This document shows positions 13,868 to 23,381 of a stretch of DNA of 44,145 bases, one piece after another. The notes under the pieces were generated by a model. It searched no databases. It was not told the DNA's origin and was given only the letters and a program-made list of their open reading frames with translations. The stretch spans positions 1-44,145 of the forward strand of contig JAUWBF010000023.1 in NCBI GenBank assembly GCA_030601755.1, read 5' to 3'. This DNA comes from Verrucomicrobiota bacterium (GTDB lineage Bacteria; Verrucomicrobiota; Verrucomicrobiia; Opitutales; Opitutaceae). The position numbers and the translations under genes were made by a program. Every line of letters starts with the position of its first letter. The first letter of the stretch is position 1.

Positions 13868-15211
13868 ATGACCAAACGCACCATCCCTCAACGGAGGTTC
13901 ATCAAGCCCTCGTTCAACTACCTGATCGAGAAGAAGCGCGACGGGCAGGAGTTCACCCAAGAAGAAATTCGCTACATCATCGACTCCACGCTCGACGGCG
14001 AGATGCCCCAGCACCAGCTGGCCGCCCTCTTGATGGCGATCTACTTCCAACAGATGTCCGCCCAGGAAACGGCCATCCTGACCGAGGAAATGATGCTCTC
14101 CGGCGAGGTGATCGACCTCTCCGAAATCGCCAAGCCCAAGATCGACAAATACTCCACCGGCGGCGTCGGCGACAAGACCTCGCTCGTGCTCGTCCCCCTC
14201 GCCATGGCCAGCGGCGTCGTCGTCCCCATGATGTGCGGCGGCGAACACGACTACGTCATCAGCACCCTGCAAAAGCTCGCCTCCATCCCCGGTCTGAAGA
14301 CCGACATCTCCATCGAGGCGTTCGTTTCCCAGCTCGCCAAGATCAACGGCGCCATCGTCGCCCAGAGCGAGGACCTCGCCCCCGCCGACGCCAAGTTCCA
14401 CGAGCTGCGCAAGGAAACGGGCACCATCCCCAGCCTCCCGCTCATCACCGGCTCCGTGCTCTCCAAGAAGCTCGCCGAGGGCTCCGAAGGCCTCGTCATC
14501 GACGTCAAGTGGGGCAACGGTTCCTTCATCAAGGACCTCGAGCAGGCCAAGCAACTCGCCCGCTCCATGACCCGCGTCGGCCGCTCCATGAAGCGCCGCT
14601 GCGTCGCCCTCGTCACCGACATGAACCAGCCGCTCGGCGACAGCGTCGGCACCGCCCTCGAAATCAAAGAGGCCATCGCGCTCCTCAAGGGCGAGGGCCC
14701 CGAAGACATGCAGGAGCTCGTGCTCAAGCTCGGCATGGAGATCGTCCGCCTCGCCGGCGTCGCCGGCTCGACCCTCTCCGCCAAGCAGACCGTGCAGCGC
14801 CACCTCACCGACGGCTCGGCCCTCGAAAAGTTCAAGGAGCTGGTCAAGGCCCAAGGCGGCGACGTCAGCTTCATCGACAACCCGGACAAGTTCCCGAAGG
14901 CAAAATACATCCGCAAGCTCCCCGCTCCCAAGCGCGGCTACGTGCACACCATCAACGCGGCGATGATCGCCCGCGGCGTGCACCTGCTCGGCGCCGGCAA
15001 GGAGAAGGCCGGTGACAAGGTCGACCACGCGGTCGGCGTGTCCGAGATCAAGAAGGTCGGCACCCAGGTCAAGCAGGGCGAGCCGCTCATGATGATCCAC
15101 TACAACGACGAGTCCAAGCTCGAGGCCGCCCTCGGCTACTTCAAGGACGCCTATCGCCTCGCGCCCAAGCGTCCGACCCCGCCGCCGCTCGTCGTCGAGC
15201 GCGTGGCCTGA
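13868..15211 (+). CDS. Thymidine phosphorylase homologue with altered active-site motif
   Basis: Thymidine/pyrimidine-nucleoside phosphorylases split nucleosides into base and sugar phosphate. The 447-residue product has the full family layout: STGGVGDKTSLVL, LPLITGSVLSKKLAEG, VTDMNQPLG, and a C-terminal lobe with KKVGTQVKQGEPL. However, the signature normally reading SGRGLGHTGGTLDKLE is CGGEHDYVISTLQKLA here. The usual active-site His (E. coli His85) is Tyr95, and the phosphate-binding Ser113 position is Cys123. The 28-residue spacing between the two is conserved. It could use another substrate or have lost activity. A strong terminator follows, and argS is divergent. Confidence 0.85.
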   Translation: MTKRTIPQRRFIKPSFNYLIEKKRDGQEFTQEEIRYIIDSTLDGEMPQHQLAALLMAIYFQQMSAQETAILTEEMMLSGEVIDLSEIAKPKIDKYSTGGVGDKTSLVLVPLAMASGVVVPMMCGGEHDYVISTLQKLASIPGLKTDISIEAFVSQLAKINGAIVAQSEDLAPADAKFHELRKETGTIPSLPLITGSVLSKKLAEGSEGLVIDVKWGNGSFIKDLEQAKQLARSMTRVGRSMKRRCVALVTDMNQPLGDSVGTALEIKEAIALLKGEGPEDMQELVLKLGMEIVRLAGVAGSTLSAKQTVQRHLTDGSALEKFKELVKAQGGDVSFIDNPDKFPKAKYIRKLPAPKRGYVHTINAAMIARGVHLLGAGKEKAGDKVDHAVGVSEIKKVGTQVKQGEPLMMIHYNDESKLEAALGYFKDAYRLAPKRPTPPPLVVERVA

Positions 15212-15272: not shown

Positions 15273-15352
15273 GCGCCACATCGCCGGCCGGCAAGCGCGG
15301 CTGATGATTTGGAGTGGACAATCTTCAATCGCTCGCGACGTTGCGTGTCACC

Positions 15353-16012
15353 ATGCCGGAACTCGAATCCCTCTTTGCCCAGAACCAAGCTTGGTCGGAC
15401 AAAATCCGTTCTCAGGATCCGACCTTTTTTGAAAAGCTGTCCAAACAGCAGTCGCCCGAATTCCTTTGGATCGGTTGCGCCGACAGCCGCGTGCCCGCCA
15501 ACGAGATCGTCGATCTCCTGCCCGGCGAGCTCTTCGTGCATCGTAATGTCGCCAATGTCGTCGTGCACGCCGACCTCAATGCCCTCAGCGTGATCCAGTT
15601 CGCCGTCGATGTGCTCAAGGTGAAGCACATCATGGTCGTCGGCCACTACGGCTGCGGTGGCGTGCGCGCCGCCCTGCGCGGCGACCGTCACGGCCTCGTC
15701 GACAACTGGCTGCGCCACGTGCAGGACGTGCGCGACAAGCATCAGAAATCCCTCGATGGCCTCGCGCCGCGCGGCGAGCCTGCGCAGGTCGACCGCCTCT
15801 GCGAACTCAACGCCATCGAGCAAGCCCTCAACGTCGCCCAGACCACCGTCGTGCGCGATGCCTGGGACCGCGGCCAGAAGCTCAAGGTCCACGCCTGGGT
15901 CTACGGCCTCAAGGACGGCCTCGTCAGCGACCTCAAGATGTCCGCCGACTCGACCGCCGTGCTCGACGAGACCTACCATCGCGCGCTCGCCAGTCTCGCC
16001 GCCCGGCCCTGA
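15353..16012 (+). CDS. can: Beta-class carbonic anhydrase
   Basis: The enzyme interconverts CO2 and bicarbonate in the cytosol. The 219-residue product aligns along its length with E. coli Can. The zinc ligands and catalytic dyad fall at Cys42, Asp44, His98 and Cys101 (IGCADSR and VVGHYGCGG), the same numbers as in E. coli. GELFVHRNVAN is intact. The ATG at 15353 gives MPELESLFAQNQAWS, which matches the family start; a GTG 13 codons upstream is less likely. It has its own terminator. Confidence 0.95.
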   Translation: MPELESLFAQNQAWSDKIRSQDPTFFEKLSKQQSPEFLWIGCADSRVPANEIVDLLPGELFVHRNVANVVVHADLNALSVIQFAVDVLKVKHIMVVGHYGCGGVRAALRGDRHGLVDNWLRHVQDVRDKHQKSLDGLAPRGEPAQVDRLCELNAIEQALNVAQTTVVRDAWDRGQKLKVHAWVYGLKDGLVSDLKMSADSTAVLDETYHRALASLAARP

Positions 16013-16135: not shown

Positions 16136-16693
16136 TCAGGCGCGGCCCATGTAGGTGCCGTCGGCGGTGTTCACCTTGATGATCTCGCCTTCCTTGATGA
16201 AGAGCGGGACCTGAACGACGAGGCCGGTCTCCATGGTGGCGGGCTTCTGCACGTTGGAGGCGGTGTCGCCCTTGATGCCCTCGGCGCTCTCGGTGACCTT
16301 GAGGGCCACGCTGGTGGGCAGGTCGATGGTGAGCGGGTTGCCGTCGACGTAGAGCACCTCGACCTTGCCGTTGGCGGTGAGGTAGTTCTTGGCGTCGCCG
16401 ATCAGGTCGGCGCCGAGCTCGATGGTCTCGTAGGTCTCGGGGTCCATGAAGGCGAAGGTGTCGCCGGCGGAGTAGCTGAACTCGAGGGTCTTGCGCTCGG
16501 TGGGCAGCACCTCGAGGGCGTCGCTGGAGGAGAAGCGCTGGTCGAGGGACTTGCCGTATTGGAGGTTGCGCATCTTCACCTGCACGAAGGCGCGGAGGTT
16601 GCCCGGGGTGCGGTGCTGGGTCTCCATCACGAGGTGGGGAGCGCCGTTGTATTTGATGACTTGGCCTTTGCGGATGTCGTTGGCGGAGGGCAT
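16136..16693 (-). CDS. efp: Elongation factor P
   Basis: EF-P binds stalled ribosomes and helps form Pro-Pro peptide bonds. The 185-residue length and three-domain pattern fit: KOW-like N-domain, central domain, and a C-terminal OB domain with the signature KPATMETGLVVQVPLFIKEGE. The loop that reads PGKGQAF in E. coli reads PGNLRAF here, so the lysine that is normally modified (Lys34) is Asn32. EpmA-type lysylation and EarP-type rhamnosylation of an arginine are both excluded at this position. The start is chosen at MPSANDIRKGQ by homology. Confidence 0.95.
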   Translation of the reverse strand: MPSANDIRKGQVIKYNGAPHLVMETQHRTPGNLRAFVQVKMRNLQYGKSLDQRFSSSDALEVLPTERKTLEFSYSAGDTFAFMDPETYETIELGADLIGDAKNYLTANGKVEVLYVDGNPLTIDLPTSVALKVTESAEGIKGDTASNVQKPATMETGLVVQVPLFIKEGEIIKVNTADGTYMGRA

Positions 16694-16732
16694 AAGTGTC
16701 TGGGTGTGGGTTTTGTCTCGAAAAAAGAAAAC

Positions 16733-16762
16733 CGCATAACCGCCGTGCTCCCATGGTGTCAA
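16733..16762 (-). promoter_or_regulatory. Candidate sigma-70 promoter of efp
   Basis: On the minus strand a perfect -35 box TTGACA (16757-16762) is followed after 18 bases by a weak -10 candidate TATGCG (16733-16738). It lies about 40 bases upstream of the efp start. The -10 match is poor, so the assignment rests mainly on the -35 box and position. Confidence 0.4.
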
Positions 16763-16878
16763 GGGCGCGCGCCCGCCGCCCGCTCCGCCCGCGCCGCGCC
16801 GGGTGGTTCGGCGACGCCCGACTAGGGACTTGCGCTCGGCTCGCCGGCATGGGCACACTGCACCCTTTTGCAACGTCC

Positions 16879-18213
16879 ATGAAACAACGCACCCTCGCTC
16901 GCGAAGTCTCCATCACGGGGAAAGCCCTGCATACCGGCGAAGACGTCACCCTCACCCTGAAGCCCGCCGCGGCCAACCACGGCTACGTTTTCCGGCGCGT
17001 CGACCTCAACGGCTCCCCCGAGATCAAGCCCCGCGCCGACCTCGTCGGCGACCTCGTGCGCCAGACCACCATTCAGGAAGGTCACGCCAAGGTGCACACC
17101 GTCGAGCACGTGCTCTCCGCCCTGCACGGGTGCGGCGTGGACAACTGCCTCATCGAGATGAACGCCTCCGAGCCGCCCATCCTCGACGGCTCCGCCAAGC
17201 CCTTCGTCGACCTCATCATGCAGGGCGACCCCGTCGAGCAGGACGCCGAGCGCGAATACTTCGTCCTCGACGAACCCGTCTCCATCCAGCGCGGCAACTC
17301 CTCCATCATCGCGCTGCCGCACGACGGCTTCAAAATCTCCTGCACCTCGGCCGACGACCGCGGCATCCACGCGCAGTTCCTCTCCCTCGGCATCGATCCG
17401 GACATCTACATGACCCAGATCGCCGCCGCCCGCACCTTCACGGTGTATGAGGACATCGAGGAGCTTATCAAACTCGGCAAGATCAAGGGTGGCTCGCTCG
17501 ACTGCGCCGTCGTCATCAAGGGCGACAAGATCCTCTCCAAGGAAGGCCTGCGCTTCAAAGACGAGTTCGTGCGCCACAAGATGCTCGATATCATCGGTGA
17601 CATCACGCTGCTCGGTCTGCCCATCAAAGCCCACATCATCGCCACCCGCCCGGGCCACGCCATCAACGCCGAACTCTCCAAGGCCCTCGCCGAAAAACTC
17701 GCCGAGAAGCGCAAGGGCCCCAAGAAGAAGCCGCGCCCGACCGCCGTGCTGCCCACCGAGACCGAGCTCGATATCCGCCGCATCCTCGACACGCTGCCGC
17801 ACCGCTATCCGTTCGTGATGATCGACCGCGTGGTCGAGTTCGTCGGCGAGGACGCGCTCGTCGCGATCAAGAACGTCTCGATCAACGAGCCCTTCTTCCA
17901 GGGCCACTTTCCCGGCAATCCGGTCATGCCCGGCGTGCTCCAGCTCGAGGCCATGGCGCAGGCCGCCGGCATCCTCATGCTCCGCCGCGGCGCCTCCAGC
18001 GAGGGCAAGACCACGCTCTTCATGAGCGCCGACAAGGTGAAGTTCCGCAAGCCCGTGCGCCCCGGCGACCAGCTCATCCTCAACGCCAAGCTGCTCAAGG
18101 CCCGCGGCAACAAACTCGCCAGCGCCGAGGTCACCTGCACCGTCGACGGCCAGGTCGTTTCATCCGCTGAGCTGATGTTCGCCATCGTCGACGAGAGCGC
18201 GATGGAGGGCTGA
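16879..18213 (+). CDS. lpxC/fabZ: Bifunctional LpxC-FabZ
   Basis: This is a fusion of two enzymes. Residues about 1-285 are LpxC, the zinc deacetylase that commits UDP-acyl-GlcNAc to lipid A, with metal-site motifs [20 protein letters not shown] and PGHAINAEL. After a basic linker ([11 protein letters not shown]), residues about 295-444 are FabZ, the 3-hydroxyacyl-ACP dehydratase, with [13 protein letters not shown] and [20 protein letters not shown]. Such fusions are known in Bacteroidetes and relatives. The ATG at 16879 ([10 protein letters not shown]) fits the family; an ATG at 16849 would add ten residues. lpxA follows 56 bases downstream. Confidence 0.95.
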
Positions 18214-21394: not shown

Positions 21395-22644
21395 TGCGGG
21401 CCGGCCGCAGGCTTGGTTGGCTCGCGGCTGTGGCGCTGGGCCTTTGGTCGTTCTGTGTGGCTGGCGCCGCGGAAGAACCCGTGACGTCGGACGCACAGGC
21501 ATCGACGGCGACCGGAGTGGTCGCGCCCACGCAGACGGACTCGCCCCTGCCGGCGGTGCTCTTCGCCGGTTCGCGCGGACGGTTTGAGGTCATCACCGTC
21601 ACGCCTGCGCTGGGTCCGATCGCCGTCGAGATGACCGAGTCGGTCTGGACGCATTTGTCGGACGTGTTGGGGCTGCCGCGGTCGGGTTTTGTCACGCCGA
21701 TCACGGTGCGTTTGGTGCCGGAGTCGCTTTGGCGGGGGGACGACCCGCACCGCGTGTGGGTGGAGGCGGCGGGGTTGGTGACGCTGGCGGTGCGCATCGA
21801 TGACACCATCGAGGCTCGCGAGTTGGTGCCTGCGTTGGTGCGCGCGCTGTTGATCAAGCGCGGCGCGACCAACGTCGGTCCGGCTTACCGCGAGGAGGTT
21901 CCGCTCTGGCTGGAGCTGGCGTGCACGCGATGGGTGCTGGCGCGCTTGCAACCGTCCTTGCACGACCAATGGCGGCAGGAGTCGTTGGACGTCCGCCCGC
22001 CGCCGCTGTTGGCCTTGTTGGCGTGGCGCGCGGACCGGCCGCGTCCGCCGACCGTCGACCTCGCCGCCTACGGTGCGTTGCAATGGTTGCACGGACTCGG
22101 TCGCGACAACGGGCAATGGGCGGAGTTTTTACGCCTGCTGTTTGCCGGCCAGCCGCCGACCCGATCCTTGGGCGTGCTCAAGGCCGCCGGCTGGACGTCG
22201 CTGGCCGACGTCGAACTCGACTGGGAGGTCGCGTTTGAGGAGCTGAGTTCGCGCAATCCGCTGCCGCTGCTGTCCATCCGCGAATCGCGCGACCTGCTCC
22301 GGCGTTGGAGCCGCGTGGTGTTGCACGACACGCGCGAGAAGACCGACGTGTTGGTCGCGCCGGCGGACCTCTGGGCGGCGCGTGACGTCCGCGCGGTGCG
22401 TGCGTTGGCGGCCGGACGCACCGGCGAGATCGAGCTGCGGCTGGGCACGATGCATCCGTTCTACCGCAACGCGGCCAACTCGCTAGGACGCTATTTTTTG
22501 CTCCTGCGCGACGGACGTCCCCCGCGCGAACTGGAGGAGGCCTGGGCTTTGTTCGAGTCCGATCTGAGCGACGCCGAGGAGCTGCGCGAGGACAGCGCGC
22601 GCATGCTCGACCGTGCTCAGGCGCTGCGCGACGAGCGGCGCTGA
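21394..22644 (+). CDS. Secreted protein of unknown function
   Basis: The 416-residue product starts with a signal peptide (RLGWLAAVALGLWSFCVAGA, cleavage expected near AGA-AEE). The rest is rich in Arg, Leu and Trp. The region around ARELVPALVRALLIKRG and PLWLELACTRWVLARL looks like the helical scaffold of peptidase-like proteins, but no HExxH zinc motif is present. Translation is probably coupled to the previous gene through a one-base overlap. Its last 28 bases overlap the end of the convergent DUF1275 gene. Confidence 0.7.
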   Translation: MRAGRRLGWLAAVALGLWSFCVAGAAEEPVTSDAQASTATGVVAPTQTDSPLPAVLFAGSRGRFEVITVTPALGPIAVEMTESVWTHLSDVLGLPRSGFVTPITVRLVPESLWRGDDPHRVWVEAAGLVTLAVRIDDTIEARELVPALVRALLIKRGATNVGPAYREEVPLWLELACTRWVLARLQPSLHDQWRQESLDVRPPPLLALLAWRADRPRPPTVDLAAYGALQWLHGLGRDNGQWAEFLRLLFAGQPPTRSLGVLKAAGWTSLADVELDWEVAFEELSSRNPLPLLSIRESRDLLRRWSRVVLHDTREKTDVLVAPADLWAARDVRAVRALAAGRTGEIELRLGTMHPFYRNAANSLGRYFLLLRDGRPPRELEEAWALFESDLSDAEELREDSARMLDRAQALRDERR

Positions 22645-23336
22645 GTCTGTTTCCAGACAAAGTAGGCCAGCCCGGCGGCGCCCGTGATCGCGGCCGGGAT
22701 AAAGAGCGTGTCGTAGCTCCACGAAGCGAAACCCAACGCGCCGAGCACGCCGCCGCAGATAAAGCCCGCCAGCAGCACCGCGTGCAGCCGGAGCTTGGGC
22801 AACTCGCCGCGCATGCCGCGCAGCCAGTGCGCGCAGGACAGCCCGAGGTCCGTCACGATGCCGGTCATGTGCGTCGTGCGGATGACGGCCCCCGCCCAGC
22901 TCGTGGCGAGGCCGTTTTGCAACCCGCAGGCCATCGACGCCAGTTGTTCGCCGCCTTGGTGGCCGTTGCGCAGCATCAGCGCGCCGCCGGAAAGCAGCGC
23001 CGACTCCAGCATCAGGGCCACGCCGTAGCGCCGGCCGATTTTCAACGAGCTTTGCCGCGTGATGAGTCCGCTGAGCAGACAGCCGAGAAAAAACGCGCCG
23101 ATGATGCCGAGCGCGTCCAGCGTCTGTGACCAGGCATGCTCCGACAGGCGCAGGCTCAGTTGGGTCACCGTGCCGGTCAGATGGGTCAGCGCCTGGTGTT
23201 GCACGCCTAGGAAACCCACGGCGTTGACGCCGCCCGCGAGCAGTGTCAGCACAAACCCGGCGAGCAGCACCTGCCGGGTGACCGGCGTATGCAAAGTTTG
23301 GTGACGGACGGGTTCAGAGGTCGCGGCGGCGTGCAT
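22617..23336 (-). CDS. YoaK-type DUF1275 membrane protein
   Basis: The 239-residue product has about six membrane segments and the DUF1275 pattern: LLAGGVNAVGFLGV, LTHLTGTVTQLSL, and AVIRTTHMTGIVTDLGL. The family is widespread, with no firm function. I take the start MHAAATSEP at 23336; a GTG at 23378 would add 14 residues and lies only four bases from the upstream stop. It follows the creatininase-like gene and overlaps the convergent secreted-protein gene by 28 bases. Confidence 0.82.
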   Translation of the reverse strand: MHAAATSEPVRHQTLHTPVTRQVLLAGFVLTLLAGGVNAVGFLGVQHQALTHLTGTVTQLSLRLSEHAWSQTLDALGIIGAFFLGCLLSGLITRQSSLKIGRRYGVALMLESALLSGGALMLRNGHQGGEQLASMACGLQNGLATSWAGAVIRTTHMTGIVTDLGLSCAHWLRGMRGELPKLRLHAVLLAGFICGGVLGALGFASWSYDTLFIPAAITGAAGLAYFVWKQTQRRSSRSA

Positions 23337-23381
23337 GACGGTAATGTTTGCTTCCTGGTCAGGCAAGAACCCTGCCACGAA

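Follow-up and report, generated by a model that had tools for sequence, protein, structure and literature searches.

An asparagine-tipped elongation factor P from Opitutaceae and the varied loop tips of its class

INTRODUCTION

Elongation factor P (EF-P) is nearly universal, and the residue at the tip of its loop has long been thought to need chemical extension. The window analysed here, a 44,145-nt stretch of DNA from a member of the Opitutaceae (phylum Verrucomicrobiota, class Verrucomicrobiia; contig JAUWBF010000023.1), encodes an EF-P that carries asparagine at this position. How could such a factor work? An earlier note on this DNA argued that it must either act unmodified or carry an unfamiliar modification on the asparagine. 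The either/or is fair, but the note missed that an asparagine type of EF-P has been described before: it makes up 2.23% of 1166 EF-Ps in the survey of Volkwein et al. 2019 (PMC6544042), where all asparagine-type factors have a proline two residues before the asparagine, and it is also named in PMC11611912.

RESULTS AND DISCUSSION

The gene and its product

The gene and its loop codons lie as follows:
16136–16693, minus strand: efp, the only gene found for elongation factor P (185 aa; from ORF, profile, domain and fold matches)
16586–16606, minus strand: codons of the loop PGNLRAF, residues 30–36 (from the sequence and its translation)
16598–16600, minus strand: codon of Asn32, which corresponds to Lys34 in the E. 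coli protein (coordinates derived from residue numbering)

The start codon is at 16691–16693 and the stop codon at 16136–16138; the earlier note placed the gene correctly and omitted its strand. The product is a genuine full-length EF-P. It passes two EF-P profiles over their full length (NCBIfam PRK00529, 230.4 bits versus a cut-off of 161; TIGR00038, 229 bits versus 185.8) and contains matches to each of the three EF-P domains in Pfam. The solved chains that it matches by sequence are EF-Ps, as are the top fold matches of its predicted model, which is of moderate quality (mean pLDDT 74.5, pTM 0.50, built from 16 close sequences). It is not EfpL/YeiP: the EfpL profile gives 155.8 bits against a cut-off of 216, and the loop has seven residues with no extension. 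Its putative role, judged by homology, is the relief of stalling at consecutive prolines. A promoter and terminator scan around efp found nothing.

The source genome (G000) is a 3.55 Mb assembly in 152 contigs, rated 96.14% complete. A second efp with Lys or Arg, which the earlier note named as fatal to its claim, did not appear, as a search of the assembly at E ≤ 10 found no further copy. Across the class, an EF-P match is present in 92 of 94 genomes, and only G063 has two.

Asparagine at the loop tip

A degenerate pattern for PGNLR[AG]F matches the window at 16587–16606 on the minus strand. In three alignments to solved EF-Ps the loop is ungapped and Asn32 lies opposite the lysine of PGKG; its equivalence to E. 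coli Lys34 derives from the loop numbering in PMC6544042. In the predicted model, residues T29-P30-G31-N32-L33-R34-A35 form the loop between strands 18–28 and 36–43, and Asn32 is central among the seven. The pairing of Asn at position 34 with Pro at position 32 (E. coli numbering) that marks the asparagine type is present, as P30-G31-N32. The claim that started this work, asparagine at the usual EF-P modification site, is thus borne out by the TPGNLRAF loop and the alignment of Asn32 to lysine.

The same eight residues, TPGNLRAF, occur in 127 of the 129 loci first fetched, a set that includes the window itself and counts some genomes twice; one of the other two loci has TPGNLRGF and one TPGKGQPV. 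Because of this identity, and because the loop recurs in seven other family codes (below), Asn32 is not an error, and both chance and sequencing error can be dismissed as its source. An alignment of 16 Opitutaceae EF-Ps shows no variation in the letters from P30 to F36. Lysine in relatives, which the earlier note regarded as counting against it, is confined among close relatives to a few cases: nearly all have asparagine, and within the window's own family (coded f1) PGKGQPV is found in three genomes (G008, G012 and G266) and APPNMSAL in one. Three loci labelled Akkermansia muciniphila (L058, L061 and L070) encode EF-Ps 79–82% identical to that of the window; these labels are probably wrong.

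Loop types across the class and phylum

Loops were covered for 25 of 25 genomes of the family, 16 of 17 of the order and 27 of 50 others of the class, plus a further set. Among 208 EF-P loops in the phylum, a set that counts certain genomes twice because they exist both under a number and under a name, the tip is N in 142, R in 35, K in 30 and A in one. Counted by genome, and restricted to genomes also covered by the search for deoxyhypusine-synthase-like (DHS-like) genes described below, the class has PGN in 55, QGR in 21, PPR in 11, PPN in 6, PGK in 5 and other loops in 2. Outside the class, PGK was found in all 25 genomes read. The loop tip therefore varies between asparagine, arginine and lysine among lineages of the class. 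Besides f1, the PGN loop is present in family codes f24, f25, f26, f28, f29, f30 and f31; within the order, a further thirteen family codes have QGRQAGF, and PPRMASY is the main loop among the f23 and f27 genomes read. The letters of PGNLRAF stay the same even in family codes where the EF-P shares just ~55% identity with that of the window. In one genome outside the class (G140) there is an additional EF-P (L216) whose loop is longer (TPSARGAATLYK) and which is possibly EfpL.

On a tree of 113 EF-Ps computed with the loop columns removed, the PGN rows fall in three places, requiring three changes, and QGR, PPR and PPN each need one. Deep support on this tree is weak, and a topology that unites all PGN rows in one clade survives testing (p-AU 0.355, 98 rows). 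The tree would thus be compatible with one origin of the PGN loop as well as with several.

Lysine- and arginine-modifying enzymes

An enzyme survey of the kind that the earlier note proposed was made in 57 relatives. None of them has an EpmA or EpmB match that exceeds the respective cut-off, and none has an EarP match; the last is a weak negative, since the control genomes were also without a match. The weaker EpmA matches listed in the relatives lie in frames of at least 460 aa, barring three of 254, 270 and 358 aa. The source genome has three such matches in its 96% complete assembly. Neither the cut-off nor E ≤ 1e-66 is reached by any of the three, and those listed lie in frames of 579 and 665 aa. 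EpmB matches in 50 of the 57 relatives were rejected for the same want of a score over the cut-off, and the genome's own copy belongs to the KamA family. This KamA-family lysine 2,3-aminomutase (L231:6076–7329, minus strand; G000:C29) is flanked by carA on one side and an IS3 transposase on the other.

The wider sample places these negatives in context. EpmA exceeds its curated cut-off in 113 of 276 phylum genomes and in none of the ~90 class genomes (90 of the 276, on the assumption that both searches drew one sample). At E ≤ 1e-66 it is found in 162 of the 276, all outside the class, but this threshold is unspecific, as 9 of 14 control genomes match and only 2 of those are over the cut-off, and the count over the curated cut-off is the safer one. 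Loops were read in 24 K-type genomes from outside the class. EpmA has a match in 22 of these and exceeds the cut-off in 17; in 16 it lies 31 to 186 bases from efp. Linkage of efp and epmA is therefore common elsewhere in the phylum, and EpmA was not seen in the class. The R-type (QGRQAGF, PPRMASY) and K-type (PGKGQPV, PGKGNAL) EF-Ps of the class (L142–L195) also come without an EpmA over the cut-off. G059, a K-type genome (TPGKGQAV) placed weakly with the class on the EF-P tree, has no EpmA match, which fits a loss of EpmA before the tip changed, and we infer this order of events.

The window's EF-P thus shares family and fold with the beta-lysylated factor of E. coli (EpmA/EpmB), a type often met elsewhere in the phylum, but differs from it in having Asn rather than Lys at the tip and no EpmA over the cut-off in its genome. 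It belongs to the same protein family as the arginine-rhamnosylated (EarP) factors as well; these have an Arg tip and lack proline at –2, whereas here the tip is Asn, that proline is present and EarP has no match in a search in which the controls were equally silent.

A changed loop as the probable substitute for a modified tip

We consider it most likely that this genuine EF-P works unmodified and that a changed loop compensates. All 41 PGN rows of the EF-P tree have N32-L33-R34, and they share His27, Arg28, Thr29, Asn32, Leu33, Arg34, Phe36, Val37, Gln38, Arg53 and Glu71, each of which is rare or absent in 24 K-type rows outside the class; positions 131, 155 and 167 differ between the two groups as well. 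Several of these residues also occur in K- and R-type EF-Ps of the class, and the changes in context may precede the asparagine or may simply mark the branch. The valyl-tRNA synthetase locus still encodes PPP, which we take to be an expected EF-P substrate.

Such a history could have begun with the loss of EpmA beta-lysylation in the class ancestor. The surroundings of the loop would then have changed, among them His27-Arg28-Thr29, Gln38 and Arg53. The tip, no longer tied to EpmA, would have become Asn or Arg, or remained Lys, according to lineage. The factor would bind beside the P-site tRNA of proline-stalled ribosomes as usual, where the rebuilt loop, instead of a long modified lysine, would steady the CCA end of the tRNA; Arg28 and Arg34 are candidate contacts to it. 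Several points weigh against an unmodified factor. E. coli EF-P K34N is inactive (PMC6544042), so asparagine alone is insufficient and an asparagine-type EF-P needs either a changed context or a modification. In addition, the strict conservation of Asn and the following Leu-Arg could equally fit the target of an unknown enzyme, and a DHS-like gene accompanies the PGN loop in most PGN genomes of the class (next section).

A DHS-like gene that tracks the PGN loop

The alternative, that the PGNLRAF factor is activated by a new chemistry on Asn32 or Arg34, possibly through a DHS-like or polyamine pathway, appears unlikely to us; if true, it would be a new type of EF-P modification in place of beta-lysylation. 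The lead for such chemistry is a DHS-like gene that tracks the PGN loop. Combining the 276-genome sample with the 57 relatives, a PF01916 match is present in 49 of 55 PGN genomes of the class versus none of the 45 class genomes with other loops, and in 3 of 25 K-type genomes outside it. Within the 276-genome sample, PGN in EF-P and a PF01916 match coincide in the class: each is present in 36 genomes, and a comparison by eye shows the two sets to be identical. The source genome's own copy (L228:3–1040; G000:C20:3–1040) is 345 aa as fetched, its frame open at the contig start, and copies in other PGN-loop genomes are ~65–88% identical to it. It retains the WGK motif, which in DHS holds the catalytic lysine, and it passes no curated name (best score 108.6 bits versus 450). 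Phage and plasmid records contained no homologues of the DHS-like protein.

The specific proposal would be that this protein aminobutylates Asn32 or Arg34, as a bacterial counterpart of deoxyhypusine formation, and we think this very improbable. A general suggestion of such a role for EF-Ps with Lys or Asn tips is in print, along with the occurrence of a DHS-like protein in some prokaryotes with these tips (PMC6544042). The gene is not, however, a constant companion of the factor, as its own type is missing from 9 of the 55 PGN genomes. Six of these have no PF01916 match (G001, G010, G023, G024, G029 and G030); in G032, G033 and G067 there is only a distant match of 27–30% identity. Scans of the matches in G032 and G067 gave scores over the NCBIfam cut-off of 1,9-bis(guanidino)-5-aza-nonane synthase. 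G067 is rated 100% complete and the other eight 83–99%. An own-type copy is also present in G113, a K-type genome with EpmA. The amide and guanidine groups are, moreover, poor nucleophiles for deoxyhypusine-type chemistry. The gene does not lie near efp, and none of the eight neighbouring ORFs scanned at five loci is a polyamine gene. On the EF-P tree there are only 2–3 independent co-changes of the DHS-like gene and the PGN loop, a number with which a sign test cannot reach significance. Bacterial DHS homologues (SpeY) have been described as homospermidine synthases rather than formers of deoxyhypusine (PMC9992855), and PMC8437039 gives a similar account. Because of the nine genomes that lack the gene, the few co-changes and the polyamine products of its homologues, the DHS-like protein is probably not an obligatory modifier of EF-P, and we have set it aside in that capacity.

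Other modifiers and rescue by ABC-F factors

Modification of Asn32 or Arg34 by an enzyme of another kind, such as a cytoplasmic glycosyltransferase, is in our estimate a slim prospect. The identity of PGNLRAF between otherwise diverged EF-Ps is as expected of an enzyme target, and the inactivity of E. coli K34N (PMC6544042) also favors a modified Asn32 or Arg34. Against this, there is no N-X-S/T sequon at Asn32 (sequons are present in PPNLTSF and PPNMSAL of other lineages, without a pattern), sister lineages with K and R tips are likewise without EpmA over the cut-off, and none of the recurrent neighbors of efp is an evident EF-P modifier. Those annotated in the window are:
13868–15211, plus strand: pyrimidine nucleoside phosphorylase gene
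15314–16012, plus strand: carbonic anhydrase gene
16696–18213, plus strand: LpxC-FabZ fusion gene (a lipid A enzyme joined to a fatty acid enzyme), divergent from efp
A further gene lies at a greater distance:
22617–23378, minus strand: DUF1275 gene

The neighbors were surveyed as all ORFs outside efp at 128 loci with the gene, nearly all of the PGN type, in flanks of 1.5 to 5 kb that are often cut by contig ends, which makes the counts lower bounds. Sequence similar to the LpxC-FabZ fusion, placed in this survey at 16861–18210 on the plus strand of the window, is found at at least 91 of the 128 loci. As single ORF groups, carbonic anhydrase occurs at at least 47, an LpxA-like protein at at least 46, an RlmI-like methyltransferase with a PUA domain at at least 39 and pyrimidine phosphorylase at at least 29. 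These proteins have other evident jobs and were rejected as a modifying enzyme beside efp, although the RlmI-like methyltransferase could still act on EF-P. It is also conceivable, though we give it very little credence, that this EF-P has little activity or a specialised role, the rescue being done by ABC-F factors of the YfmR/Uup type. ABC-F proteins reportedly assist EF-P where motifs are difficult to translate (PMC11381351), but the loop and body of the window's EF-P are conserved over many genera, which argues against an inactive or specialised factor, and the retention of efp in nearly the whole class (92/94) and the persisting PPP of the valyl-tRNA synthetase locus speak against replacement. 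An unmodified EF-P with a changed loop therefore stays our preferred reading.

Relation to known EF-P types

Unmodified factors are familiar from other lineages. The actinobacterial Lys-type EF-P, with a PGKGP loop, works unmodified and would share with our preferred reading a function achieved through loop composition in the absence of a modifying enzyme; it keeps Lys at the tip, whereas the window's EF-P has Asn followed by Leu-Arg. The fold matches of the latter include a structure from Corynebacterium glutamicum. EfpL/YeiP is functional with an unmodified Arg33 at its tip, again by loop design (PMC11611912), but has a longer loop and an Arg tip, whereas the window's EF-P has a seven-residue loop and falls below the EfpL cut-off. 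The earlier note overlooked such factors; since working unmodified factors are already known, 'unmodified' is an ordinary option. The window's EF-P also resembles the asparagine type of Volkwein et al. (PMC6544042), which has the same Asn tip with Pro two residues before it. The available parts of that paper name no taxa for this type, do not connect it with the loss of EpmA and assign it no native function, and its distribution in the class was worked out here.

The asparagine-type EF-P is thus known, and what is new is its setting in a class where EpmA was not seen and the tip is N, R or K. We found no description of this class-wide pattern in the open-access literature, supplementary files aside. 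With a tip that varies in this way and with no lysylating enzyme found, the class offers a natural experiment on the demands that the EF-P loop has to satisfy, and cultured members of the class exist.
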